Below, piece after piece: positions 10,627 through 23,845 of a stretch of DNA of 26,177 nt. Source of the stretch: a virus; the IMG/VR virus record IMGVR_UViG_3300049255_000577, positions 1-26,177 of that record; one strand, 5' to 3'. The stretch's first letter is position 1; every line of letters starts with the position of its first letter. The notes under the pieces are model-generated. The model was not told the DNA's origin and ran no database searches. It saw only the letters and a program-made list of their open reading frames with translations. Both the position numbers and the translations under genes were made by a program.

Positions 10627-11583
10627 TTAAGCCAGGTCCCTCACCGCGCCGTGGGCCTTCTGGTTCTTCATCACCAGGCACTTCTCGCCGGTGAGGATGA
10701 ACCGTTCGGAGTCGCCGGTTTTCGCCAACGGCTCGGTTGCCCAGCCGCGCAGCGTGCCGACGGCGACCATCTCCGGATCGACGAGGCAGCAATCGCGTCC
10801 GAGCCCATAGGCATGCGGGATCAGCGCGAGATTGCCGAAGTCCGACACATAGACGTCGGCCGCCCCGATGATCGTCGCCATCGCATCGCCCGGCGCATCC
10901 TTGCGGATCGAGGCGATGCCGGTGAAGGCCGAGAACGCCTGCTTGTGCGCCGGCCCGACATAGGCCTGCTTCGGCTTGCCGCCATTCGCGAAGCAGGCGG
11001 ACAGCACCTGCTTCACCAGCGCCTCGGTGAAAGTGCGCTGCGTGCCGTTGGTCGCCGCGGTGACGATGCCGCTGGCGAAGCCGCCGTCGGAACCGCCCGC
11101 GCCGTCGGAGGTGTTGAGGCTCAGCCAGGCGAGGAAGCCGCCCGTGCCGCGCGGCGTCGCGCCGGACTCCGCGTTGGACGCGTAATTGCCGATGACGCGC
11201 TTTTCGAAATCGCGCTTGGCCTCGATGCCCTTCAGCACCTTCTGCCGGTTCATCTCGGACTTGCGCCCGGCCTTGTCGACGATCTCTTCCGTGCCCGACA
11301 CGCCGCCCGTCTTGCGCACGATCTGGCAGTAATTGCCGACGCGGCTCGTCAGGTTGGGAGAATCGAGCGAGGCGATGTCGTCGCCTTCGAGCTGGGCGTT
11401 GGCGGCGTTCGGCGTGGCGAGCGTTTCCGTCTGCCACTCGTGATACACGGCCTTCGCCGTGACCTTGCCGATGTTGGAGGTGAAGGGCGTGTCTTCCGGC
11501 GCGACGCGGTAGATCACGTCCTCCAGGTCCTCGCGGTTGCCGACGCTGACGAGCGTCGTCGTGGTGTTGGTGGGTGCGGTCAT
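10627..11583 (-). CDS. Major capsid protein (SU10/DUF5309-like)
   Basis: The 318-residue protein shows the pattern of the SU10-type HK97-fold capsid family: REDLEDVIYRVAPEDTPFTSNIGK near the N terminus (about 17-40), HEWQTETLATP, the spine-like stretch KSEMNRQKVLKGIEAKRDFEKRVI (about 108-131), GGFLAWL, the TFTEALVKQVLSACFANGGKPKQAYVGPAHKQAFSAF block, and a C-terminal beta region with DVYVSDFGNLALIPH and PEMVAVGTLRGW. It would assemble on the scaffold encoded just upstream, three bases away. GAGGA precedes the ATG at 11583. A terminator-like repeat follows, which fits the usual need for far more capsid than tail protein. Confidence 0.9.
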   Translation of the reverse strand: MTAPTNTTTTLVSVGNREDLEDVIYRVAPEDTPFTSNIGKVTAKAVYHEWQTETLATPNAANAQLEGDDIASLDSPNLTSRVGNYCQIVRKTGGVSGTEEIVDKAGRKSEMNRQKVLKGIEAKRDFEKRVIGNYASNAESGATPRGTGGFLAWLSLNTSDGAGGSDGGFASGIVTAATNGTQRTFTEALVKQVLSACFANGGKPKQAYVGPAHKQAFSAFTGIASIRKDAPGDAMATIIGAADVYVSDFGNLALIPHAYGLGRDCCLVDPEMVAVGTLRGWATEPLAKTGDSERFILTGEKCLVMKNQKAHGAVRDLA

Positions 11584-11586
11584 GCC

Positions 11587-12579
11587 TTATCCTCTTGCGT
11601 TGAGCAGCGCGACCGCGTCGTCGACGCGGCCCGTCGAGCGGAGCCGTTTCATCGCGTCGTCGGCGGAGCGCTGCGAGTTGGAGCGCTGCGGCGCCGCCGT
11701 GGGTCTCACGACAGGACGCGCCTGCTGCGCCGGTTGCTTTCGTGCGAGCTCGGACGCTTTCGCCTGCGCCTGGCGCCACCGCATGGCGTCGTACGCAATC
11801 GCGGCCTCGTCGGCGCTCATCTGCTGGATGCGGTCGGCCGGAAAGCCCATGCCCAGGAGGAACGTCCCCAGCTGGCGCTTCCGCTCCGGACCGTGCGTCT
11901 CGTCCGCGAGCTCCGGCGCCGCGGTCTTGAGCTTCTCGCTCTCCGCGGCGACGAATTTGCGGAACTGGTCCTCGCGCGCCGCCTGCTGCAGCGCGTGAAG
12001 CTGGACCATCGTGTCGCGCTCTTTCTCGAACTGCGCCTTCAGCTTGAACGCCTCGTCCGCGCCCACCTGGTCCGGCAACGTGGACCAGTCGATATTGGCC
12101 CAGCGGTTCTGGAACAGGTTCGCGATGTCGGGTGCGAGCTGGTCGAGATAGGCGAGCCTTCGGCCCACCTCCGCGACGCCGGCCTCGGCATGCTTGCGCG
12201 CCGCCGCCGCTTCCTGCTTGGCCCGCGACGTCACGCGCTCGCGCATATCCTCCTGCTGAAACACGACGGCTTGCAGCTCGGGAGGAAGGCTCGCGAACCG
12301 CGCCTTCGCCTCTTTGGACCACCAGCGCGGCGGTTCCGGCGCCGCAATCTCCTGCGCACCCTCCTCCGCACTGTCGTCATCGGCATCGCCGGGCCCGTCG
12401 CTCTCGCGCTCGGCCTCGCTGCCGGACTCTTCTTCAGCTGCGGATGCAGCCGGAGTCTCGATCGACGCGCCCGTCTCCGGCGCCTCATCCTCCTTCTCGC
12501 GCGGCTCCGCGCCGAGAAGATGTGCGGCGGCGTCCACGGACAAAGCCGTATCGCCCGCCACTTTCGTGTCGGTGGTCAT
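11587..12579 (-). CDS. Capsid scaffolding protein
   Basis: The 330-residue product is rich in charged residues and Ala. It has an acidic disordered N terminus (about 20-80, with EEESGSEAERESD and DADDDSAEEG), a conserved PRWWSKEAKARFASLPPELQ block (about 83-102), long helical coiled-coil segments (about 105-245) and a basic C-terminal tail (KRLRSTGRVDDAVALL) of the kind that binds capsid subunits. Position directly before the capsid gene and after portal is diagnostic for podovirus scaffolds. It directs procapsid assembly and then leaves. AGGAG precedes the ATG at 12579. Confidence 0.85.
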   Translation of the reverse strand: MTTDTKVAGDTALSVDAAAHLLGAEPREKEDEAPETGASIETPAASAAEEESGSEAERESDGPGDADDDSAEEGAQEIAAPEPPRWWSKEAKARFASLPPELQAVVFQQEDMRERVTSRAKQEAAAARKHAEAGVAEVGRRLAYLDQLAPDIANLFQNRWANIDWSTLPDQVGADEAFKLKAQFEKERDTMVQLHALQQAAREDQFRKFVAAESEKLKTAAPELADETHGPERKRQLGTFLLGMGFPADRIQQMSADEAAIAYDAMRWRQAQAKASELARKQPAQQARPVVRPTAAPQRSNSQRSADDAMKRLRSTGRVDDAVALLNARG

Positions 12580-12666: not shown

Positions 12667-13947
12667 CTATCGCGCGTCGAGTATCTTGCGGCACTTGTCG
12701 GCGCGCGCGACGAGAGCGACGACCAACCGGTCGATTGTTGAACTGCTCAAGCCGTCGTTTTTTGCCTTCGCTGCGGCGGCTCTTGCTTCGTCAGGCAGAC
12801 GCGTGGCCATTGCTCGCAGGCGGGAGATCATCTCGTCCGGATCGACGCGGATTTCGCGCGCAAGCTTGTGCCATTGTCGAATGCCTATCGCGTCAAGTTC
12901 GTATTCTCCACCGACCTTCATGGCGAGTTTGGCTTTGCGCAAGTCGAACGCTTTGTACGGCAAAAGGCTGGCGATGTCGTAGAGGGGTGCCAGCCTTACC
13001 CGCGGACCGCTGAGCAGGAGCGAATAGTTTTTGGCGTGCGCATCGGTACCGGCCACCAGCCAATTGAAGCCGATTGCGTCGATGAAGGTCTGGATATCGT
13101 CTACGGAGTTGCTGGAAAAGTTTCTCAGCAGATCCACGATTTGGGCAACGCCGGGCCCTCCCTCATTTTGATATTTCCGCGTCGGCATGACGCCTAACGA
13201 TTGGCAGACGTCTTCCTGGTGAACTCTTATGAGCTGGTTGCCGGAGCGAAAGCGATCGTAACGTTCGACGACAATGGCGACCTCGTTCTCGAAGCGCATC
13301 ACGTTGGAGGAGGCGGTAGGCATGCCGAGAGCCCGGGCCAAAGCGAGGCAGACATGCTCATTTTCCGCATGCCCGTCGAACTGTCCGGTTGGCGGCTTCA
13401 GAATGTGAGTCGTCGGCAATCGACCGGATGGGATGCCCCATCTGTCGTTCTCGCGCATAAGCGCGGTTTTGGGTTGCGCCCCGGCGAGACTGAACTGACC
13501 GGTATCGTCGGGCAGCCGCCAGGCTGCATGATCTTCGCGTAACGCTCTCAGTCGCTTTGCTATGGCGGCTTCGTCGAGCCATTCGACTTTATCTTCGGCG
13601 CCGCTCAGGACAGACGTCAGCGCATCCGGACCGACAAATTGAATCGCGCCCGCGCAATCCTCGCCGACATTGGCCAGGAGCGAGAATACATTCCGGGCTG
13701 AGACGTGAAATTTTCGCGCCCACCTGTCGAGGACCTGCTCATTGTCCGGCAGGAGGCCCCACATAAACGCCTCGATCACGTCCGGGCTGTGCTCTGGAGC
13801 GTCCAGTGGCATGGACAGCGAAATGGGATAAGCGTCGTCGGCCTGCCGCCAGGCTGCTTCATATTCGAATGTCAGCTCTCCGCGTTTTTGCTGGCGGACG
13901 CGACCTGCGACTTGCCCGGCGAGGAGAACGATAAGTTCGTCTGTCAT
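12667..13947 (-). CDS. hipA: HipA-type serine/threonine kinase toxin
   Basis: The 426-residue protein has the full HipA plan. The N-terminal domain carries a SLSMPL segment and the FMWGLLPDN motif (about 43-70). The phosphate-binding activation loop FSLAGAQPKTAL lies at about 152-163 with its serine at 153. ILKP is at about 182-185, catalytic GTDAHAKNYSLL at about 300-311 (Asp302), and the metal-binding PLYDIASLLPY at about 321-331 (Asp324). Known HipA kinases phosphorylate aminoacyl-tRNA synthetases, which stops translation and causes growth arrest; the target here is unknown. It is coupled to hipB by a 4-base overlap (ATGA). Catalytic residues look intact. It sits inside a phage late operon, on the same strand, which is unusual. 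Confidence 0.93.
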   Translation of the reverse strand: MTDELIVLLAGQVAGRVRQQKRGELTFEYEAAWRQADDAYPISLSMPLDAPEHSPDVIEAFMWGLLPDNEQVLDRWARKFHVSARNVFSLLANVGEDCAGAIQFVGPDALTSVLSGAEDKVEWLDEAAIAKRLRALREDHAAWRLPDDTGQFSLAGAQPKTALMRENDRWGIPSGRLPTTHILKPPTGQFDGHAENEHVCLALARALGMPTASSNVMRFENEVAIVVERYDRFRSGNQLIRVHQEDVCQSLGVMPTRKYQNEGGPGVAQIVDLLRNFSSNSVDDIQTFIDAIGFNWLVAGTDAHAKNYSLLLSGPRVRLAPLYDIASLLPYKAFDLRKAKLAMKVGGEYELDAIGIRQWHKLAREIRVDPDEMISRLRAMATRLPDEARAAAAKAKNDGLSSSTIDRLVVALVARADKCRKILDAR

Positions 13948-14228
13948 CGCGCAGGCGTCTTTTTCGCGGCCGAGACAATTGCATCGATGTCGGGAGCAGA
14001 AGGCGACTTCGGCCTAGGATTGGGGAGGAAAATTTCGAGGCTCAGGCCGAGCGCATTGATTGCGCGGAGAACGAGTCCAAGTTCTGCACGCGCACGCCCC
14101 TTTTCGACGGCGATGATCCATTGCCGGCTGGTGCCGATGCGTTTGGCCAGGTCGGCTTGCCCGAGACCGAGCGCTTTCCGCTGGTTTCGGATGGCTGCTC
14201 CAACTTGGCCGGGGGTGCGGATAGTCAT
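13944..14228 (-). CDS. hipB: HipB-like antitoxin, Xre-family repressor
   Basis: The 94-residue protein has a Cro/CI-type helix-turn-helix over about residues 8-62 (VGAAIRNQRKALGLGQADLAKRIG, then TSRQWIIAVEKG) with the RTPGQVG start common in HipB. A flexible tail (PNPRPKSPSAPDIDAIVSAAKK) probably contacts HipA. It should neutralise HipA and repress its own operon through the three palindromes upstream. AAGGA precedes the ATG at 14228. The recognition helix faces TGTCA/TGACA half-sites in place of the TATCC of E. coli HipB; half-site size and spacing are the same. Confidence 0.92.
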   Translation of the reverse strand: MTIRTPGQVGAAIRNQRKALGLGQADLAKRIGTSRQWIIAVEKGRARAELGLVLRAINALGLSLEIFLPNPRPKSPSAPDIDAIVSAAKKTPAR

Positions 14229-14238
14229 GGGATCCTTA

Positions 14239-14310
14239 TGTCAGCGAGCATTGACATCATAGCTATGTCAGCGATCATTGACAATCCAAATATGTAATCG
14301 ATCACTGACA
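14239..14310 (-). promoter_or_regulatory. Three hipBA operators, evenly spaced
   Basis: Three 18-base palindromes with consensus TGTCA-N8-TGACA lie at 14239-14256 (TGTCAGCGAGCATTGACA), 14266-14283 (TGTCAGCGATCATTGACA) and 14293-14310 (TGTAATCGATCACTGACA). Start-to-start spacing is exactly 27 bases in both intervals. The 5+8+5 layout equals that of the E. coli HipB operators. The outermost copy has one imperfect half-site. They cover the promoter described next, so HipB autoregulation is the natural reading. Confidence 0.88.
14256..14284 (-). promoter_or_regulatory. hipBA promoter
   Basis: On the minus strand a -35 element TTGTCA (14279-14284) and a -10 element TATGAT (14256-14261) are separated by 17 bases. 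The -35 lies in the middle operator and the -10 touches the edge of the proximal one, so bound HipB would block RNA polymerase. This promoter allows expression in the lysogen independent of late phage transcription. Confidence 0.8.
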
Positions 14311-14312
14311 TT

Positions 14313-14421
14313 CCCCCCGCCCCCTGCGGGCGGGGGCAGGGGGTGGGGGTGCTGATCGAAATCTCCAACGCCGGAATCCGCGTCGCGACCCCCACCCCTG
14401 CCCCGCCCGCGGGGGGCGGGG
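14313..14421. repeat. GC-rich palindrome E on the right side of hipBA
   Basis: Two arms (about 14313-14350 and 14390-14421) made of CCCCGCCC/GGGCGGGG and GGGGTGGGGGT blocks pair almost perfectly around a 40-base centre. The first arm shares 22 identical bases (14315-14336) with palindrome D at 12608-12629. It fills the gap between the hipB operators and the 85-residue gene. Confidence 0.78.
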
Positions 14422-14429
14422 AAATCTCG

Positions 14430-14687
14430 CTAGTTCTTCGCCACCGCCTCCGCCGCATCCCGCGCCGCCGCCTCGATCTTCCCGGCGTCCACCACCTGCC
14501 GCAGCGCCGCGCGCACCGCGTCCAGCGATTGCACCGCGTGATAGAGCCGCTCGCGTTCGTCGCCGGCGTTGAGCGGCGACTCCAGCAGGCGTTTCACCAT
14601 CGCCGCGCGCACCGCCGCGAACGCGGCCTCCGTCTCTGCGAGCTCGCGCCCCGCCCGCTCGCCCCGCGCCATCGCCTCCGTGCTCAT
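14430..14687 (-). CDS. Small helical protein downstream of portal
   Basis: The 85-residue product is almost all helix and rich in Ala, Glu and Arg (MSTEAMARGERAGRELAETEAAFAAVR..., LYHAVQSLDAVRAALRQVVDAGKIEAAARD). Proteins of this size and pattern, with AFxxxxxxxxxxLxxxP and a closing VxxGKIEA, often lie between the portal and scaffold genes of podoviruses; I know of no defined function. It overlaps the portal stop by 4 bases (ATGA). The hipBA cassette now separates it from the scaffold gene. Confidence 0.75.
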   Translation of the reverse strand: MSTEAMARGERAGRELAETEAAFAAVRAAMVKRLLESPLNAGDERERLYHAVQSLDAVRAALRQVVDAGKIEAAARDAAEAVAKN

Positions 14688-16792
14688 ACCGTCCCTCCGT
14701 TCAGCGACACCGCCGGCAGCGGCACCGTCGGCTTTCCGTCCGCGAGCGCATGGGCGAGATCGACCTTGGTCCGGCTGTCGATGTCGTAGCGCTTGAGCGC
14801 GAGCTCGCCTTCCATTTGCGCCCGCTTCAGCGCGGCCTCGCTGTCGATCTGCTTCGATGTGTTCGCCGCATCCATCGCGTATTTCTGCGTCTCGCGCTGA
14901 TGCTCAAGCTGCGCCTTCACCAGCTCGGGCGGCTGTTGCGGCGCCGGCGGTCGCGGCGCATTCGGGCTCGTCGGATCGGTCAGGAACCGCTCCGGCGCCT
15001 TGATGCCTAGCTTGCCGAACATGTAGGCCGCCATGGCATAGACGTTCGCCTCGGTCACAATGGGTCCCTGCGCGCCGCCCTGCCCGGCCACGATCTGCTG
15101 CAGGATCTGCGAGGCCTGCGCCGCCATGGCGAGATCGTGCGACTGGCCCGAGGCGCCGAGGCCGATCTCGATCGTCATCTCGTTGCGCTCGCCCCAGCTC
15201 GTCGGATCGACCGGGATCCACTGCCCGCGCAGCCGCGCATAGCGCGTGCTCGCGCAGTTCTCGCGGATCAGCGCATGCACGCCGAGGAACAGGTCCTTGA
15301 TCCCCGACTCCGCGAAGACGCGCGCGATCAGCCGCACGCGCTTCTGCGCCGCCGTCATCAGCGCCATCGCGCCGGTGGCGGAGTCGTGCAGCGTGTCCGG
15401 GTTGAGCCCCTGGGCGTTGCGCACGATCCCCGTGCGCTGCTCCGCGACGGTCGCGAAATATTCGAGCGCGCCGAAGGCGTCGAACGACAGGGCGCCGCTC
15501 GCCACCGGCCGCACCGCATTGCCGGTGCGCGAGCGGATCGGCACGCCCGGCTCGTTGCGCAGCAGGTCGGAGATCGTGTACTCGCCCGCCTGGTCGGTCG
15601 AGACCTCGACGCGCTGGTTGAGCGCGAAATAGCCCGAGTCGAGCACCATGCGCGTCAGCGCCGTCTTGATCCGCTGCACTTCGAGCAGAAGATCCGCGAG
15701 CGAGCGGCCATAAATTCGGTGCGTCACCGGATAGGGCGTGATGGCGGCGAACATCACGCGGTTCAGCTTCTCCTTCTCGATCAGCTTGGTCTCGTCCGCC
15801 GACGTCACCACGCGCCAGTATTCCATCTTGCCCGTGTCGGGCGAGCGCAGCTTGATGCAATGGGTGACGACCTCGACCTGGCGCAGGTCGTGCGGCTCGC
15901 CCGCATTGGCGTCGCGCGCCGTGTGCTCGCCGGCGGTGTCGCGCGCCATCTCGACGCTCGCATCCTCGCGATTGCCGTAGGGCGGCAGCGCATCCACGAT
16001 CTCCTGCGCGATGCCGCGGTCGAGGAGATCCTGCGCCCTTGGCCTTGCGCGCATCGCGCAATAGGTCGCGTCGCGCAGCGCCACCGTGTCCGCCGCGACG
16101 GTGAAATCGTCCGGCGAGACCGCCATGATCTTCACGTCGGACTTGTCCACCGTCTGGCGGAAGGTGAAGGAATAGGTCGGCAGCGCGCCGTCCGCGACCG
16201 GATCGGGCTCGAGGTCGAGGATCTCGCCGTCCTGCGCCGCCAGCGCGATCTCTACCGCGCTCTTGCCCGAGAAGCGCTCGTCGCGGATGTCGATATCCTC
16301 TTCCCACCAGAACATGAACACGCCGAGCTTCTCGAGCAGCGCGTCCTTGATGGCGGTGTAGAAAGTCATGAACCCGTCATTCTTGTGGAAGACGACATGG
16401 TTCGTGTAGTCGGTCTCCTGCTGCGCCTGGGCTTCGTCGGCCTCGGAGAGCGGCGTGAAGGCGGCCACGTCGTTGCCGCCGGTGAAGATCTCGATCAGGT
16501 CGGGCAGCACCGTCTCGATCGCATCGGCGACGTCGGTGGACACCGCGCGCGAGCGGTTCGGCAGCGAAGGCACGTCGGGCATCACGCCCTTGAAGTAGTT
16601 CAGCGCCAGCTCGCGCTCGGCGATCAGCTCGCGGTCGCCCTCGAAGCCGATCGAGGCCTCGCGCTCGCGCGCGACCAGGCGCAGGAGCTCGTCGTCGGAA
16701 TAGCCGGGATCGGCATTTGCGGGTGCATCCTTGGCGGGTTCCGCGGAAGGACCCGGCGTTGCCGAAAGATGCGGCAAATTGGGATTTGTCAC
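14684..16792 (-). CDS. Portal protein (P22/SU10-type)
   Basis: The 702-residue protein matches large podovirus portals. It has an N-terminal YSDDELLRLVAREREAS helix (about 30-46) and RELALNYFKGVMPDVPSLPNRSRAVSTDVADAIETVLPDLIEIF (about 65-105). Later come a KLGVFMFWWEED segment, an FTVAADTVALRDA block, the TPYPVTHRIYGRSLADLLLEVQRIKTALTRMVLDSGYFA stem helix, and a C-terminal barrel helix rich in Gln/Glu/Ala (KAQLEHQRETQKYAMDAANTSKQ). It forms the DNA channel at one capsid vertex and binds terminase and the adaptor. The start is a GTG (16790-16792) with GAGGA upstream; no ATG is available before the conserved region. The rightward cassette lies directly upstream, so its mRNA source is unclear. 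Confidence 0.9.
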   Translation of the reverse strand: MTNPNLPHLSATPGPSAEPAKDAPANADPGYSDDELLRLVAREREASIGFEGDRELIAERELALNYFKGVMPDVPSLPNRSRAVSTDVADAIETVLPDLIEIFTGGNDVAAFTPLSEADEAQAQQETDYTNHVVFHKNDGFMTFYTAIKDALLEKLGVFMFWWEEDIDIRDERFSGKSAVEIALAAQDGEILDLEPDPVADGALPTYSFTFRQTVDKSDVKIMAVSPDDFTVAADTVALRDATYCAMRARPRAQDLLDRGIAQEIVDALPPYGNREDASVEMARDTAGEHTARDANAGEPHDLRQVEVVTHCIKLRSPDTGKMEYWRVVTSADETKLIEKEKLNRVMFAAITPYPVTHRIYGRSLADLLLEVQRIKTALTRMVLDSGYFALNQRVEVSTDQAGEYTISDLLRNEPGVPIRSRTGNAVRPVASGALSFDAFGALEYFATVAEQRTGIVRNAQGLNPDTLHDSATGAMALMTAAQKRVRLIARVFAESGIKDLFLGVHALIRENCASTRYARLRGQWIPVDPTSWGERNEMTIEIGLGASGQSHDLAMAAQASQILQQIVAGQGGAQGPIVTEANVYAMAAYMFGKLGIKAPERFLTDPTSPNAPRPPAPQQPPELVKAQLEHQRETQKYAMDAANTSKQIDSEAALKRAQMEGELALKRYDIDSRTKVDLAHALADGKPTVPLPAVSLNGGTV

Positions 16793-16881: not shown

Positions 16882-17094
16882 ATGACGACGGAACTGGTTC
16901 CCGAAAACGCGCAGAAGACTCCTGAACCGCCGCGACAGCGGCGGCGGCGCCGTCGCTCACGGCGGCGGGGCTCGTCGCGCTACTCGCGGCGGTGGAAGGT
17001 CGTGTTGTATGTCGCGATGATCATCGCCGTAATCCTCGGCGGCTACATAGTCCTCATGTTCATCATCAGCCCGTCCACGACCGTATCCGGCTAG
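16882..17094 (+). CDS. Small Arg-rich single-span membrane protein
   Basis: The 70-residue product has an N-terminal proline/charged segment, a dense arginine tract (about 18-37, 14 of 20 residues are Arg) and one transmembrane helix (about 40-62), so the basic tail should lie in the cytoplasm. I do not recognise it. It is the first gene of the rightward cassette; the acyltransferase start codon follows its TAG with no gap, so the two are probably co-translated. It may anchor or regulate the acyltransferase. A possible -35-like TTGTCA lies at 16786-16791 but no good -10 accompanies it. Confidence 0.62.
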   Translation: MTTELVPENAQKTPEPPRQRRRRRRSRRRGSSRYSRRWKVVLYVAMIIAVILGGYIVLMFIISPSTTVSG

Positions 17095-18354
17095 ATGAGC
17101 ACGACCGCAACCACGCCCGGGATCGAGCACCACCGCGTCGGCGGAGCCATCGCGCCGCGCGACCGCTTCGATGCGCTCGACTCCCTCCGGGGCATCTGCG
17201 CCCTTCTCGTCGCCCTGCATCACTTCGTGATCTTCTCGAACGCCAATCTCGCGAAGGTCGGCTTCGTCCAGAACGCGTTCCTGTTCGTCGATTTCTTCTT
17301 CGTCCTGAGCGGATTCGTGATTTGCCACGCCTACGGCTCCCGCATCGCCGGCACGGCGGACCTCGCGAACTTCATGATCCGGCGTTTCGGCCGGCTGTGG
17401 CCGCTGCATGCCGCGGTGCTGGCCGCTTTCCTCCTGATGATCCTGCTCTGCCAGCTGCTTCCTCACCCCGCGTTTCTCGATCTCACCCTCTTCAAGGGGT
17501 CGAGATTTTCTCTGGCCAAGCTGCTTCTTGCGACCATCTTCCTCGGCTCCTTTCATATCGCCGAGCTGGGCTGGAACATGCCGAGCTGGAGCATCAGCGC
17601 CGAATTCGCCATGTACTTCGTGTTCGGCCTCGTCTGCATCGCCGGCCGCCGCCGCCTGCCGCTGATTTCAGCGCTGGTCGTCCTCGGCGCGCTTCTGTTT
17701 CTTTCGCGGCTCCGGGGCGTCTACATCACCACGACCTCCGATTTCGGCCTCGTGCGTTGCGCGCTCGGCTTCTTTCTCGGTGTGCTCGTCTACTTTAGCT
17801 ACAGGTCATTTGTAGTTTTCCGAGCGCTTTCGAGGACATTTGCCACAGCGATCGAGACGGTTACCATCGTCATCGCCATTGCTTATGTTTCGCTGGTCGC
17901 CGGTGCGGAACCCAGCCCGAGTTCCGCTACGCTCGCCGCGCCATTCGTCTTTGCCCTTGTAGTATTCAGCATCGCAATTGGACGAGGTGCGCTGTCTAGC
18001 GCCCTGGTTGCCAAGCCAGCTATCAGATTGGGCGAACTGTCATACTCGATCTACATGGTCCATTGGATGGTCTTTATGGCCGCTGACTGGGCGATATTTA
18101 TGATTTCCGCCGCTATCAAGGTCCCCTCGCCTGTTGGACCTTGGCCTACCGGAAATGACCTTATCCTGACCTTCACGCATCCAATCTATGCCGACATATT
18201 GGCAATCCCGCTTTGCCTAATGACAATTGGCATATCGATGATCAGCTACCGCTACATAGAAGTGCCATGGCGAACGTACTTCAACAACATCGCTAGACAG
18301 CGCGAGATGAACTCAGTCTCCACACTCCAAGTTCAATCGGGAGCAATCTCTTGA
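17095..18354 (+). CDS. Acyltransferase 3 family membrane protein (OafA-like) 1
   Basis: The 419-residue protein has about ten membrane helices and the acyltransferase-3 signatures: FDALDSLRGICALLVALHHF (about 25-44, with Arg32 and the His42-His43 pair), FFVLSGFVICHAY (about 68-80), IRRFGRLWPLH (about 95-105) and SWSISAEFAMYFV. These enzymes move acyl groups, commonly acetyl, from the cytoplasm to sugars of O-antigen or other surface glycans; phage copies change serotype and block re-infection. The exact acceptor cannot be read from sequence. Base composition drops visibly in GC from about 17.79 kb to the end of the gene, unlike its first half. ATG at 17095 directly follows the previous stop. 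Confidence 0.88.
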   Translation: MSTTATTPGIEHHRVGGAIAPRDRFDALDSLRGICALLVALHHFVIFSNANLAKVGFVQNAFLFVDFFFVLSGFVICHAYGSRIAGTADLANFMIRRFGRLWPLHAAVLAAFLLMILLCQLLPHPAFLDLTLFKGSRFSLAKLLLATIFLGSFHIAELGWNMPSWSISAEFAMYFVFGLVCIAGRRRLPLISALVVLGALLFLSRLRGVYITTTSDFGLVRCALGFFLGVLVYFSYRSFVVFRALSRTFATAIETVTIVIAIAYVSLVAGAEPSPSSATLAAPFVFALVVFSIAIGRGALSSALVAKPAIRLGELSYSIYMVHWMVFMAADWAIFMISAAIKVPSPVGPWPTGNDLILTFTHPIYADILAIPLCLMTIGISMISYRYIEVPWRTYFNNIARQREMNSVSTLQVQSGAIS

Positions 18355-19526
18355 ACGTGTTCGAAAAGCTCGCGTCAGGTCAGACGATCGCGGAACGTAT
18401 CGCAGAGAAGAAGATCACAACAGGCTTCGATTATCTGCGAATTACGTTAGCGGCCGCCGTTGTTCTTTGGCACACCGTCGCGACTTCCTATGGCCTTGCC
18501 GCTCAACAGCCGTTCGTTCATTCGCCGATGCGGCCGCTTATGTTTGCCATCCTGCCGATGTTCTTCGCCCTGAGCGGTTATCTCGTTACTGGTAGTTTGC
18601 TCCGAGCGAAAACAATTTTCGAATTCGTCATGTTGCGTGTTCTTCGGATTGTGCCAGCACTATTTGTTGAGATCTTCCTCTCGGCCTTCCTGCTAGGTGG
18701 TTTGTTTCTCACGACGGTTCCGAAATCGACTTACTTCACGTCGCCGGAGTTTTACGCCTACTTCCTCAATGTAGTCGGAGATATCCACTACTACCTTCCC
18801 GGCGTCTTCGAGACGAACCCGCTGCCCGGCGTCGTAAATGGTCAGCTATGGACGATCCCGTGGGAACTCCAGTGCTATTTTGCGATCACCTGCGCCGCGA
18901 TTGGCTGGTGGCTTTGGCGCCTCGTGTCACGCGATCAATCTGCGACAATATCCAACCAGCGCACCACGTTTCTGGCTTTAGCGATCATCGCGAACATCGC
19001 CGGTTGGGCATATTTTGTTACCCACAAACATCATCAACTCGTAGATATCCAGGCAAATGGCGTCTTGCTTGTAATCGAATTTTTGGCCGGCGTTACGCTC
19101 TATCTATTCCGCGACAAAATTCGGCTCAACGTGTGGCTTTTTGTGATGGCGATCGCCTTCACGTATGTCGTGACGTTGGATTTGCGAACCGAATATGCAG
19201 CCGCGTTCCCGCTCGCTTACGTGATGGTTTATCTTGGAATGACTTCACCGGACAAAAGATGGCTGTTTGGCGGCGCAGACTTCTCGTACGGCCTCTATCT
19301 CTTTGGTTTTCCAATTCAACAAACCTATTCGTACCTGTTTCCCGGCTATCGAATCTGGTGGCTAAACTTCATCTTCGCCATGGCTTTCGGGCTCGCTTAC
19401 GCTGCTTTCTCTTGGTTTTGTGTCGAGAAGCCGATTAACGATAGAAAGAAAATCATAATCGCAGCGGTCAGCAACCTTCTACGAGTTAGGCCAGCCAGCG
19501 CTTTAACGACAGCAAAGTCGGATTGA
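18351..19526 (+). CDS. Acyltransferase 3 family membrane protein 2
   Basis: This 391-residue multi-span protein shows the same family marks, with FDYLRITLAAAVVLWHTV (about 26-43, His41), LPMFFALSGYLVTGSL (about 68-83), FVMLRVLRIVPAL (about 92-104) and LWTIPWELQCYF. It is clearly diverged from its neighbour, so not a recent duplicate; the two may modify different positions or sugars. Translation probably starts at TTG (18351), overlapping the previous stop (TTGA), with GGGAG upstream; an in-frame GTG two codons later is the alternative and no early ATG exists. Its DNA is lower in GC than the phage genes. The stop is two bases from the end of the convergent esterase gene, with no terminator between. 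Confidence 0.87.
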   Translation: MNVFEKLASGQTIAERIAEKKITTGFDYLRITLAAAVVLWHTVATSYGLAAQQPFVHSPMRPLMFAILPMFFALSGYLVTGSLLRAKTIFEFVMLRVLRIVPALFVEIFLSAFLLGGLFLTTVPKSTYFTSPEFYAYFLNVVGDIHYYLPGVFETNPLPGVVNGQLWTIPWELQCYFAITCAAIGWWLWRLVSRDQSATISNQRTTFLALAIIANIAGWAYFVTHKHHQLVDIQANGVLLVIEFLAGVTLYLFRDKIRLNVWLFVMAIAFTYVVTLDLRTEYAAAFPLAYVMVYLGMTSPDKRWLFGGADFSYGLYLFGFPIQQTYSYLFPGYRIWWLNFIFAMAFGLAYAAFSWFCVEKPINDRKKIIIAAVSNLLRVRPASALTTAKSD

Positions 19527-19528
19527 AC

Positions 19529-20686
19529 CTAAGTGGCTAGTAGTAGTGGCGCGACGAACGCGGCCTTGTCGTCGTAGCCGACCGGGTTCTCGTGGATGTT
19601 GTCGTGCATAAAGCCCAGCCCATTGGCATTCGACCAGGAACCGAACCGCGTCCACATGTCTGCGATGACAATGTCCGGGCAGGACTGGACGAGGCTGTTG
19701 ACCATGGCCCGGTATGCGGGCTGCTGCGGCGCAATCACGGAGTCGTTGCTCGGACATTCGTTTATGACGATCACATCGCCGGAGATGCGGGCAGCGTTGA
19801 TCATCGCAATGTAGTTCGACCTCGTTGTGGACAATGGTATCGTCGGGCCGGTCACCTCCGTGTCGGCAAGGCCCGCTTCGAAGATCGTCAGGTCGGGTGC
19901 TAGCAACTCCAGCATCGCAAGAGGATCCCAGGGATTAACGTTTGCAGACATCTCGACGGTCGTACCGCTATCCCAGCCGCAGCGCCACACTGTGATGTCG
20001 TTCTGTGCCGCGATGTAGGTATCTGCAGCGATCACGTAGGTGTCGCCGTTGACGCGCGTGGCATTGGCGGCCTGGACGGCTGCCGCAACACCGCTCGAGA
20101 TTGTCTGCTTGAACACAGTATTGCTGGTGCCGTAGCAGTTGACCGTCGCCGTGCCCCGGCCGCCAACGTCAAGCGTCATTTGACTAGGACTTGGGATAGA
20201 GCTCGCGGTGAGCGTGTAGAAGTCACAGGTGTCGAACGGTCGCAAGGGCGTGAAGGACAATACGCCGGTACCAGTTTTGTTGAACCACATCGGACCACCG
20301 AGCGTCGGCGGAGCGCCAAGGCCTAAGGCGCTCCAACCGCTGCCGATCGCAATGCGTGGATCGGATGCATAGGCGGGATCGGTGACCGCGATATTGTTGG
20401 ATGACGCCATGACATCCGTGCGCCAGTTGATCGTCGAGTCCGCGGCGGCGAGTATCGTGCGCAGACGTTCGGCCATCGAATTCGAGTAGTTCGACAAGCT
20501 GCCGTTGCCGGTGTAGCCGCGCTGCTTGGAATGGCCGACGCAGAGGATGCGCTTGCGCGCGGTGCCCGCTGCAGCCGACCGCACGGTCGATTTCGCGCGG
20601 CGCCAGCGCATGAGGCAATTGAGCTTGTCCCAGTTGGCGACGCCCTGAATGCCATTCACCGGATTGAACGGAATCCCCTTCCCCAT
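19529..20686 (-). CDS. SGNH-hydrolase-like esterase, probable tail-associated or receptor-modifying protein
   Basis: The 385-residue protein carries SGNH blocks. A nucleophile-type motif RILCVGHSKQRGY (about 46-58, Ser53) replaces the usual GDSxxxG. A block-III-like stretch PDLTIFEAGLADT has GxAD where GxND is typical. The closing catalytic pair MHDNIHENPVGY is at Asp362/His365. Between them lies a beta-rich insertion (about 130-270) that could be carbohydrate-binding. Such enzymes remove acetyl groups from glycans and occur in phage tailspikes. The ATG at 20686 lies one base after the stop of the 103-residue gene. The longer frame upstream has no conserved sequence. Attachment to the virion is inferred from co-transcription with structural genes. 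Confidence 0.75.
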   Translation of the reverse strand: MGKGIPFNPVNGIQGVANWDKLNCLMRWRRAKSTVRSAAAGTARKRILCVGHSKQRGYTGNGSLSNYSNSMAERLRTILAAADSTINWRTDVMASSNNIAVTDPAYASDPRIAIGSGWSALGLGAPPTLGGPMWFNKTGTGVLSFTPLRPFDTCDFYTLTASSIPSPSQMTLDVGGRGTATVNCYGTSNTVFKQTISSGVAAAVQAANATRVNGDTYVIAADTYIAAQNDITVWRCGWDSGTTVEMSANVNPWDPLAMLELLAPDLTIFEAGLADTEVTGPTIPLSTTRSNYIAMINAARISGDVIVINECPSNDSVIAPQQPAYRAMVNSLVQSCPDIVIADMWTRFGSWSNANGLGFMHDNIHENPVGYDDKAAFVAPLLLAT

Positions 20687-20687
20687 C

Positions 20688-20999
20688 TTATGTCCCCACC
20701 CGGACGATCGCGGTTTGTCCGGTCGGGCTGCGCAGATAGACGTCGCCGAGCGGCACGCCGCTGTCGAAGTCCTCGCCGCCCAGCACCGCTTCGCCGTTCG
20801 CGTCGGCCGGCGCGGCGGCGCCGGCGGGGACGGACGCCCATTCGATGTCGAAGATGGTGGCGGTGCCGATATTGCCGACGCGCAGCGCCTTGGTGGTCGC
20901 ATCGGTGGTGGCGACCTTCGTCCAGGCGGACGACAGCGTGAAAGGCGAGCCCGGTGCGTTCGCGTAGCTCACCAGGCCGTAAGTGACGGGTCCTGACAT
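20688..20999 (-). CDS. Small structural protein next to terminase
   Basis: The 103-residue product (SGPVTYGLVSYANAPGSPFTLSSAW..., ATIFDIEWASVPAGAAAPADANGEAVLGGEDF, GDVYLRSPTGQTAIVRVGT) looks all-beta. It could be a capsid decoration or fibre-base protein; no family function is recognised. The ATG at 20999 lies directly before the terminase stop region (TTCAGACG junction), without overlap of coding frames, and the gene ends one base before the esterase start. The close packing suggests these two are expressed together. Confidence 0.68.
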   Translation of the reverse strand: MSGPVTYGLVSYANAPGSPFTLSSAWTKVATTDATTKALRVGNIGTATIFDIEWASVPAGAAAPADANGEAVLGGEDFDSGVPLGDVYLRSPTGQTAIVRVGT

Positions 21000-22280
21000 T
21001 CAGACGACTCCAAAGGAAGGGATTTCGAGCTTCTTTGCCGATTTCACCGGCGTCCGCGCGGTGGCGAGCGTGCGCAGCGCGTCGGCCGCGTGGCTCGTCC
21101 AGTCGTGCAGCGGGCGCTCGCGCCAGACCTGGCGCTTGCCGTCCCATTCGCGGCGGTACTGCTTGAGCGCCTCGATGCCGCGCGCGCAGCGCTCGGCATC
21201 GAACCAGCAGCGCGCCAGCATCAGCCGCACCGCATTGATGCCGTCGGCCACCTCCTGGCGCGGCACCACCTCGACGTTGCGCAGGCCGAGCTCGCCCAGC
21301 GTCTCGATGCGGCTCTTGCCGGTGCCGAGCTCGCGCACCTGCACGTCATGCGGCAGGACGTGGCGGCCGTAGCGATACGCCTTCGCCTCGAGCTGCCGGA
21401 CGATCTGGGGCAGGCCCTCGCCGCTCACCTCGAGATAGTCGATCAGGCGGCGCTCCTGCCCCACATCCTGCACGAACCAGATCGCGGTGGCGTCGTCGAT
21501 GCCGAGATCCCAGGCGGTGTCCACCCTGACGACGGGATCGGCCGGCACCCGGCAGAGGCGCTTCGCCTCCGCCGCCTCGCGCAGCGCCCGCGCGTAATAG
21601 GCGCCTTCGACCGAGGCGTCGAAGCTGCACTCGTATTCGCGCGCATAGGCGTCCTCGTCCATGCCGGCGCGGGCGCTGGCGAGCTCGGCTTCCGAAAGGA
21701 GACCCGTCTCGCTGGCGCGGAATTCCCACAAGGCCCAGTCCTTCTCGCCCGCCCGCGCGCGCTCGCGATGGGCGAAGAACGTGTTCTTGCCGCGCGGCGT
21801 GCCGCCGAACGCGGCCCAGCCGTTGCGGTCGGACAGCGCGGGGCGGAGAACCTCCGTCCACACCCGCGGGTCCATGTCGCCGAACTCGTCGAGCACGACG
21901 CCGTCGAAATAGAGCCCGCGCAGCGCATCCGGATTGTCGGCGCCGAACAGCCGCACGCGGGCACCCTGCGGAAAGTCCACGCGCAGCTCGCCCTCGTGGA
22001 AGCGCGTGCCCGGTATGGGCGCCGCGAGCCACTTCACGTAATCCCAGGCGATCGCCTTCGCTTGGCTGAGATAGGGCGCGACATAGCCGAAACGCGGCGA
22101 CGGCCGTTTGCAGGCCAGCGCCGCGGTCTGGAGCTCTTTCATGAAGGCGACGGTCTTGCCGGCGCGGCGATGGGCAACGGCGACGCGAAAGCGCGTGCTG
22201 CTCGCGTGAAACGATTGCCAGATGTCGCGGGCAATATAGGGAATGCTTACCTTGCACTCGGATCGGGCATCGCCTCGCAT
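21000..22280 (-). CDS. Terminase large subunit
   Basis: The 426-residue protein carries the packaging ATPase motifs: Walker A in VAVAHRRAGKTV (Lys42-Thr43), Walker B in GVVLDEFGDM (Asp131-Glu132) and the coupling motif AFGGTPRGKN (about 157-166). The C-terminal RNase H-like nuclease domain has RVDTAWDLGIDDATA (Asp254) and DWTSHAADALR (Asp393/Asp400). It docks on the portal, pumps DNA into the procapsid and cuts the concatemer. The chosen ATG at 22280 (MRGDARSE) overlaps the small-subunit gene by 34 bases, with GGAGG about 13 bases upstream; the longer frame is the shadow of that gene. Length fits the shorter P22/T7-independent class. Confidence 0.92.
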   Translation of the reverse strand: MRGDARSECKVSIPYIARDIWQSFHASSTRFRVAVAHRRAGKTVAFMKELQTAALACKRPSPRFGYVAPYLSQAKAIAWDYVKWLAAPIPGTRFHEGELRVDFPQGARVRLFGADNPDALRGLYFDGVVLDEFGDMDPRVWTEVLRPALSDRNGWAAFGGTPRGKNTFFAHRERARAGEKDWALWEFRASETGLLSEAELASARAGMDEDAYAREYECSFDASVEGAYYARALREAAEAKRLCRVPADPVVRVDTAWDLGIDDATAIWFVQDVGQERRLIDYLEVSGEGLPQIVRQLEAKAYRYGRHVLPHDVQVRELGTGKSRIETLGELGLRNVEVVPRQEVADGINAVRLMLARCWFDAERCARGIEALKQYRREWDGKRQVWRERPLHDWTSHAADALRTLATARTPVKSAKKLEIPSFGVV

Positions 22281-23521: not shown

Positions 23522-23845
23522 TCAGGCCTTGCAGGGATGGAGCGCGATCCAGGCATCGGTGATCGCCGCGTCGGTGTCGCGCCCGTTTTCCTCGGCATGT
23601 TCGCCGAGCCAGGCCTGCACTTTCGGGATTCCGCCCGCCACGTCGTAATCCGCCGGCGCGCAGTAGCGCTTGTCGGCGTCGGCGACGAGCGAGGTCTCGA
23701 CCGTCGCGATGCGATCCTCGCAGGCGCCCGCGTGATCCTTGCACCAGGCGAGGAAGTCGCCCGTCTTCGCTGGGCCGTCCGTGCCGCCAAGCGGCGGAAA
23801 CAGCACTGGCACCGCGAGAACGACGCCGTATTTCCATTTGCGCAT
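23522..23845 (-). CDS. Secreted four-cysteine protein (Rap1a/Tai-like)
   Basis: The 107-residue product has a basic start and hydrophobic core (signal-like, about 1-20) and then four cysteines at 35, 42, 62 and 105. The spacing (GDFLAWCKDHAGACEDRI, RYCAPADYDVAGGI, VQAWLGEHAEE, AWIALHPC) recalls the Rap1a/Tai family, known as immunity proteins of type VI secretion effectors and also widespread as small periplasmic proteins. The match is by pattern only. It lies outside the late operon, just upstream of its promoter, and may be an accessory (moron) gene or part of the early transcript. GGAG precedes the ATG. Confidence 0.62.
   Translation of the reverse strand: MRKWKYGVVLAVPVLFPPLGGTDGPAKTGDFLAWCKDHAGACEDRIATVETSLVADADKRYCAPADYDVAGGIPKVQAWLGEHAEENGRDTDAAITDAWIALHPCKA

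Follow-up and report, generated by a model that had tools for sequence, protein, structure and literature searches.

O-acetylation by Oac, the acyltransferase-3 (AT3) enzyme of Shigella phage Sf6, prevents re-infection (PMC9558356). The SGNH receptor-binding proteins of Klebsiella prophages are active esterases, and gp63.1 of phage G7C deacetylates LPS (PMC13123978); for Klebsiella, acetylation and deacetylation were proposed in 2026 as opposing phage strategies (PMC13123978). In Pseudomonas phage YA3 a tail fibre gene (17634-19985) and an AT3 gene (19986-21914) are convergent and lie 0 bp apart (PMC7326022). The literature search returned these separate elements and the interplay of acetylation and deacetylation; the exchange of a receptor-binding tip and a convergent modifier gene as a unit was not stated in it, which, given the incomplete coverage, is weak evidence of novelty.

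The window (the whole stretch of DNA that was analysed, an IMG/VR virus record 26,177 bases long) has its late genes in leftward orientation. A repressor with an S24 peptidase domain, located at its right end, suggests a temperate phage, of podovirus type. The genes considered here are the following:

P70: 16882-17094, plus strand, small Arg-rich single-TM protein that opens the rightward operon
AT3a: 17095-18354, plus strand, acyltransferase-3 integral membrane protein with R-X10-H and RXXR motifs
AT3b: 18351-19526, plus strand, second, divergent acyltransferase-3 protein, its TTG start overlapping the AT3a stop
SGNH: 19529-20686, minus strand, SGNH-fold virion-type protein with a CBM-like insertion and a predicted Ape1-like fold, convergent with AT3b
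P103: 20688-20999, minus strand, small orphan protein of 103 aa immediately upstream of SGNH, probably a virion protein
Terminase large subunit: 21000-22280, minus strand, flanking gene (ORF open to 22595)
Portal protein: 14684-16792, minus strand, SU10-type, flanking gene (E 1e-152)
HipBA pair: between portal and scaffold
Scaffold: 11587-12579, leftward late gene
Major head protein: 10627-11583, leftward late gene, with further virion-type proteins also present

The AT3a start is the first base past the P70 stop, the SGNH stop codon begins at 19529, leaving a convergent gap of 2 bp after the end of AT3b at 19526, and the SGNH ATG (20684-20686) is one base from the P103 stop. Terminase and portal share the strand of the SGNH gene and bracket the P70-AT3a-AT3b/SGNH/P103 group. 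Because the open frames are long, the family matches strong and the starts coupled, this arrangement is more than chance. The coordinates, together with the PF01757 scores given below, confirm the description in an earlier note of two distinct AT3 genes and a small basic membrane protein that read rightward and end 2 bp from a leftward SGNH gene.

The locus shares features with each of the described systems. As in Sf6, where a phage AT3 acylates a surface glycan and blocks re-infection (PMC9558356), the window AT3 proteins may mask a receptor; this function is proven in Sf6 and presumed here, and Sf6 differs in having a single AT3 and an endorhamnosidase as virion enzyme. YA3/Ab31 (ORF19, tail fibre; ORF20, O-polysaccharide acetyltransferase) is likewise a temperate podovirus with a convergent abutting AT3 (PMC7326022), but its fibre is annotated with a tailspike domain and not SGNH, it has one AT3, and the pair is near the integrase instead of between terminase and portal. 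In the Arthrobacter phages Hum25 and Kukla one or more AT3 genes converge on a virion-side SGNH/GDSL gene at a gap of 3 bp (2 bp in the window); unlike the window, they have actinobacterial hosts, their AT3 is fused to or accompanied by SGNH, and the genes end the late operon. This esterase-AT3 arrangement is annotated in their records and was not discussed in the papers found. With G7C gp63.1 and the Klebsiella prophage SGNH fibres (PMC13123978) the window protein shares the SGNH fold and, by its presumed virion location, the character of a receptor-binding protein, whereas their esterase activity is demonstrated and the window SGNH is without the block III Asn. The P70-AT3a-AT3b genes, antisense to the late genes and beside a receptor-binding-type gene, fit the layout of a converting or exclusion moron. 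In support of the earlier note's interpretation, an antisense AT3 group abutting a virion-type gene matches known converting phages; the genomic position is unusual.

The PF01757 profile gave 71.7 bits for AT3a and 60.5 bits for AT3b, both above the cut-off of 31, and in PHROG both were assigned as O-acetyltransferase (3.6e-42 and 4.5e-22, respectively). The R-X10-H motif was found at R32-H43 in AT3a and R30-H41 in AT3b, and the RXXR motif as RFGR at 97 and RVLR at 96. The two proteins showed 27% identity across their best stretch of 122 aa. Crude hydropathy, read against a family with about ten TM helices, gave 11 peaks for AT3a and 6 above threshold for AT3b. By profile and motif both are judged genuine PF01757 members, and the pair likely adds acyl groups to host surface sugars. 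AT3b shares 42% identity with the AT3 protein found in Burkholderia phage Magia. P70 has a net charge of +12 and one TM segment; no relative of it was found, and a sigma-70 scan upstream of it gave no promoter-like site. With an Arg-rich stretch followed by one TM segment, P70 is similar to the anchors at the N-termini of exported SGNH proteins such as Mbo4 gp25 and Kukla gp30, but has no enzyme domain.

The match of the SGNH protein to PF13472 (23.5 bits, E 9e-5) was below the Pfam cut-off of 32.9, but the assignment is confirmed by a match to PHROG 15881 'tail protein' (5e-9) and by the predicted structure (pLDDT 77, pTM 0.84). Among viral structures, this model matched those of minor tail proteins, tail fibres and hydrolases from phages of Arthrobacter, Gordonia, Rhodococcus and Klebsiella. 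The protein has neither a signal peptide nor a TM segment, which, together with the late strand, PHROG 15881 and the tail-fibre structural matches, would suit a place in the virion. S53 (the block I nucleophile) and D362 and H365 (the block V Asp-x-x-His) were invariant across 11 aligned sequences, and the block II Gly stretch was strongly divergent. The oxyanion-hole Asn of block III is replaced by Ala in the window (G-L-A-D); a clear Asn is present in eight of the nine homologues, the INDG of locus L203 being offset by one column. Esterase activity is therefore uncertain, though Ser and Asp-x-x-His are retained. Three homologues from the Bradyrhizobium family (L195, L196 and L197) have twin-arginine-like starts (MRRREF, MRRRHF) and are found outside an obvious phage context.

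The best PDB match of the model was the Campylobacter peptidoglycan O-acetylesterase Ape1 (E 7e-16, TM 0.67-0.73, over most of the length), CE2 esterases being matched more poorly. Both this match and the block III Ala would suit a virion protein that is catalytically dead or Ape1-like and binds glycan or peptidoglycan, so that the acyl group added by the AT3 proteins is irrelevant to it. We consider this reading unlikely, though by no means negligible; the retained catalytic Ser and Asp-x-x-His argue against it, as do the named viral structural matches, most of them to tail fibres, minor tail proteins or hydrolases. Far less probable is that the SGNH protein is a non-virion, extracytoplasmic transfer partner of the AT3 proteins, comparable to the AT3-SGNH fusions or to WecH with PatB. 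Such fusions are present in Hum25 and in the related prophages L156 and L203, exported SGNH genes lie next to AT3 in Magia and Kukla, and a soluble SGNH domain can receive acetyl groups from an AT3-only protein (PMC9558356); against this, the window SGNH has no export signal or membrane anchor of its own, follows P103 and terminase directly on the late strand, and matches a tail PHROG.

In other phages AT3 and other glycan-modifying genes often abut receptor-binding genes, and often convergently:

Hum25: esterase facing an AT3-SGNH fusion, convergent, gap 3 bp
Kukla: tail-type SGNH facing an exported SGNH and AT3, convergent, gap 3 bp
Doggs: tailspike facing AT3, convergent, overlap 50 bp
L203: SGNH tail protein facing AT3-SGNH, convergent
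Pantoea AH07: AT3 facing a tail fibre assembly gene, convergent
L184: AT3 abutting a non-esterase fibre, convergent
Pitbull and EvePickles: hexapeptide acetyltransferases opposite the receptor gene, convergent
Magia, Halomonas 4908, L004 and L185: AT3 beside a receptor-binding gene, same strand (the L185 fibre is non-esterase)

L203 was found via SGNH and is a biased case, whereas the AT3-first searches are unbiased. Counter-examples, in which AT3 has no tail neighbour, were Caulobacter C1, prophiGD02-2 and L003. Full-length SGNH proteins on the convergent side had an N-terminal signal or anchor, and the virion-side SGNH proteins facing them had none; among the latter, Kukla gp29 matches PHROG 15881, as does the window SGNH. 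Three candidates were discarded: Magia as an instance of this pair (the SGNH there is a lipoprotein and unrelated), the acetyltransferase of phage JC1 (a RimL-type N-acetyltransferase), and a match in Acinetobacter MD-2021a, whose neighbourhood looks chromosomal.

Ten Arthrobacter phages were compared, giving 12 sibling pairs homologous on both flanks: Hum25-Pitbull, Hum25-Sarge, Pitbull-Sarge, Shoya-BrayBeast, Shoya-Sarge and BrayBeast-Sarge, together with every one of the six pairs among Kukla, TripleJ, Faja and EvePickles. In Shoya and BrayBeast, which belong to one genus, the DNA was 96% identical as far as about residue 173 of the receptor protein; past it no DNA homology was detectable over the tip, the gene convergent with it and a further two genes, after which high identity returned. 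In Hum25-Pitbull, homology was back 46 and 20 bp past the convergent genes. The same pattern was found in all 12 pairs, which are not independent and whose exchanged block falls in the most mosaic part of phage genomes: homology broke off within the receptor gene or shortly ahead of it and was regained only beyond the convergent gene(s), where present. The convergent gene was an AT3 in Hum25, Kukla and Faja, a hexapeptide acetyltransferase in Pitbull and EvePickles, and an SGNH in Shoya, TripleJ and Zaheer, as also in Rhodococcus phage Mbo4; Sarge had none. The receptor proteins facing modifiers included SGNH proteins in Hum25, Kukla, TripleJ, Zaheer and BrayBeast and a polysaccharide deacetylase in EvePickles, and similar modifiers were found beside dissimilar receptor proteins.

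Receptor tip and convergent modifier are thus replaced jointly in sibling Arthrobacter phages. This need not mean functional matching, because the block ends the late operon, a place at which accessory genes of any kind would arrive. In EvePickles (L218:1573-4506) the virion-side polysaccharide deacetylase (PF01522) faces an annotated glycosyltransferase and the hexapeptide acetyltransferase, a pairing of opposite chemistries. In BrayBeast (L211:4907-5672) a truncated SGNH of 130 aa and an ORF of 85 aa, probably a decaying exported SGNH gene, face the receptor gene.

Relatives of the window phage were collected with an alignment of the capsid protein, that of the portal being too divergent for scanning, and 160 loci were fetched. 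In the 83 of these with both terminase and portal the interval between the two was mostly near zero, and in none did it hold an AT3 or an SGNH gene; the placement between terminase and portal is indeed unusual, as the earlier note had it. In some loci the interval holds small virion-like genes (81 aa in L017; 163 and 204 aa in L018; 85 and 246 aa in L144), analogous to P103; in the window this slot is filled by P103 and SGNH. SGNH relatives were found elsewhere in the late operon of L088 and L180, with small proteins upstream, likewise analogous to P103, and no AT3 within their records. In L016, the closest capsid relative with an AT3, this gene faces a lectin-like, non-esterase fibre at a gap of 9 bp. 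Since L016 has an AT3 with a non-esterase fibre, and L088 and L180 have SGNH without AT3, the two are not tied together in this phage group, and independent carriage of the parts by relatives, which the same note had named as counting against its reading, is what these loci show. No close relatives were obtained when viral contigs were scanned with the single proteins SGNH, AT3b and portal, or genome contigs with the portal. In genomes sampled from the class of G046 (a Caulobacterales MAG), no relative of SGNH turned up among 385, nor one of AT3b at 1e-40 among 289; distant SGNH relatives are present in the Bradyrhizobium family. In Bradyrhizobium phage ppBeUSDA76-2 (L006:14908-17000) the portal frame is interrupted some 184 aa in and carries the annotation of a short hypothetical protein.

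These loci bear on a reading in which AT3 morons gather antisense to late genes in the vicinity of receptor genes, the most recombined region, by positional hitch-hiking, so that the contact with an esterase-fold gene is functionally meaningless and the AT3 and SGNH proteins act on different glycans. An AT3 also abuts non-esterase fibres in L016, L184 and L185, in L156 an AT3-SGNH fusion has portal and capsid genes on its two sides and no adjacent receptor gene, and an antisense position is typical of morons (PMC7067206). The contact in the window is, however, away from the end of the late operon, in a site that holds neither gene in the 83 related loci, and many receptor proteins that face modifiers are de-acylating enzymes by family. 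We hold such hitch-hiking to be rather improbable.

GC3 is near 0.60 in AT3b (0.61) and in the 3' part of AT3a, 0.77 in SGNH and 0.82-0.94 in most head and tail genes. Because AT3b and SGNH differ in GC, with a step at their junction, a single recent joint arrival is unsupported, and one-step joint acquisition cannot be taken as proven by GC; a stepwise history is as likely. The earlier suggestion that both sides can be exchanged together is borne out directly by the sibling Arthrobacter phages; for this locus the composition does not show it as a one-step arrival. Within the single open frame of AT3a, GC3 falls from 0.86 to 0.59 near 17790, so that either two AT3 genes have recombined or the assembly has a join here. 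With the convergent genes 2 bp apart, late transcripts heading for the portal must run antisense through the AT3 genes, unless there is a second late promoter, and this could shut them off in lytic growth.

The explanation we favour, with somewhat better than even confidence, is a lysogenic-conversion and self-exclusion cassette coupled to a receptor-binding protein, tip and modifier forming one exchange unit. P70-AT3a-AT3b would be a lysogenic-conversion operon with a promoter of its own, encoded opposite to the late genes and expressed in the lysogen. AT3a and AT3b would O-acylate a glycan on the lysogen's surface, be it O-antigen, capsule or some other polysaccharide, and the acylation would hide the receptor from the same phage and related ones. 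The SGNH protein, with its Ape1/CE2 esterase fold, would be the virion receptor-binding protein for such a glycan, de-acylation being perhaps kept, perhaps lost. Placed tail to tail, the tip and the receptor-modifying gene would move as a unit, a new tip bringing its matching self-exclusion gene, and the window would hold a functionally matched pair. Counted for this cassette were the PF01757 motifs, the SGNH tail matches, the modifier-receptor contacts, the block exchange in 12 of 12 pairs and the restriction of signals to convergent-side SGNH proteins; counted against it were the split parts in relatives, the block III Ala, the GC difference between AT3b and SGNH and the missing sigma-70 site.

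A wider form of this proposal, to which we give slightly less than an even chance, is that across temperate phages of unrelated hosts the tip and a convergent receptor-altering gene form one exchange unit, often as the two opposed sides of a single chemistry, with a de-acylase in the virion and an acylase in the lysogen, so that a new specificity would bring matching self-exclusion; the window would then be such a unit moved to the terminase-portal interval. Viruses may in this way trade the key (the tip) and the matching change of the lock (the modifier) together. If the two travel together, host range and self-exclusion would be inherited as one trait, which would help to explain why serotype conversion matches receptor choice in temperate phages. 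As a genomic rule, the gene facing a receptor-binding gene could be used to find unknown surface-modifying enzymes and to guess the glycan of the tail enzyme. Physical coupling would also make the acetylation/deacetylation proposal testable in isolated phages such as Hum25 and Pitbull.

Two further segments of the window were noted. At 23522-23845 a protein of 107 aa weakly matched the Rap1a-type immunity family (PF18602, E 2.6e-5, below the cut-off). The portal-scaffold interval (12667-14458) holds the HipBA toxin-antitoxin pair (PF07804, 3.6e-52) and a single-TM gene of 77 aa; its GC is below that of the backbone, and it constitutes a second insertion next to the portal.
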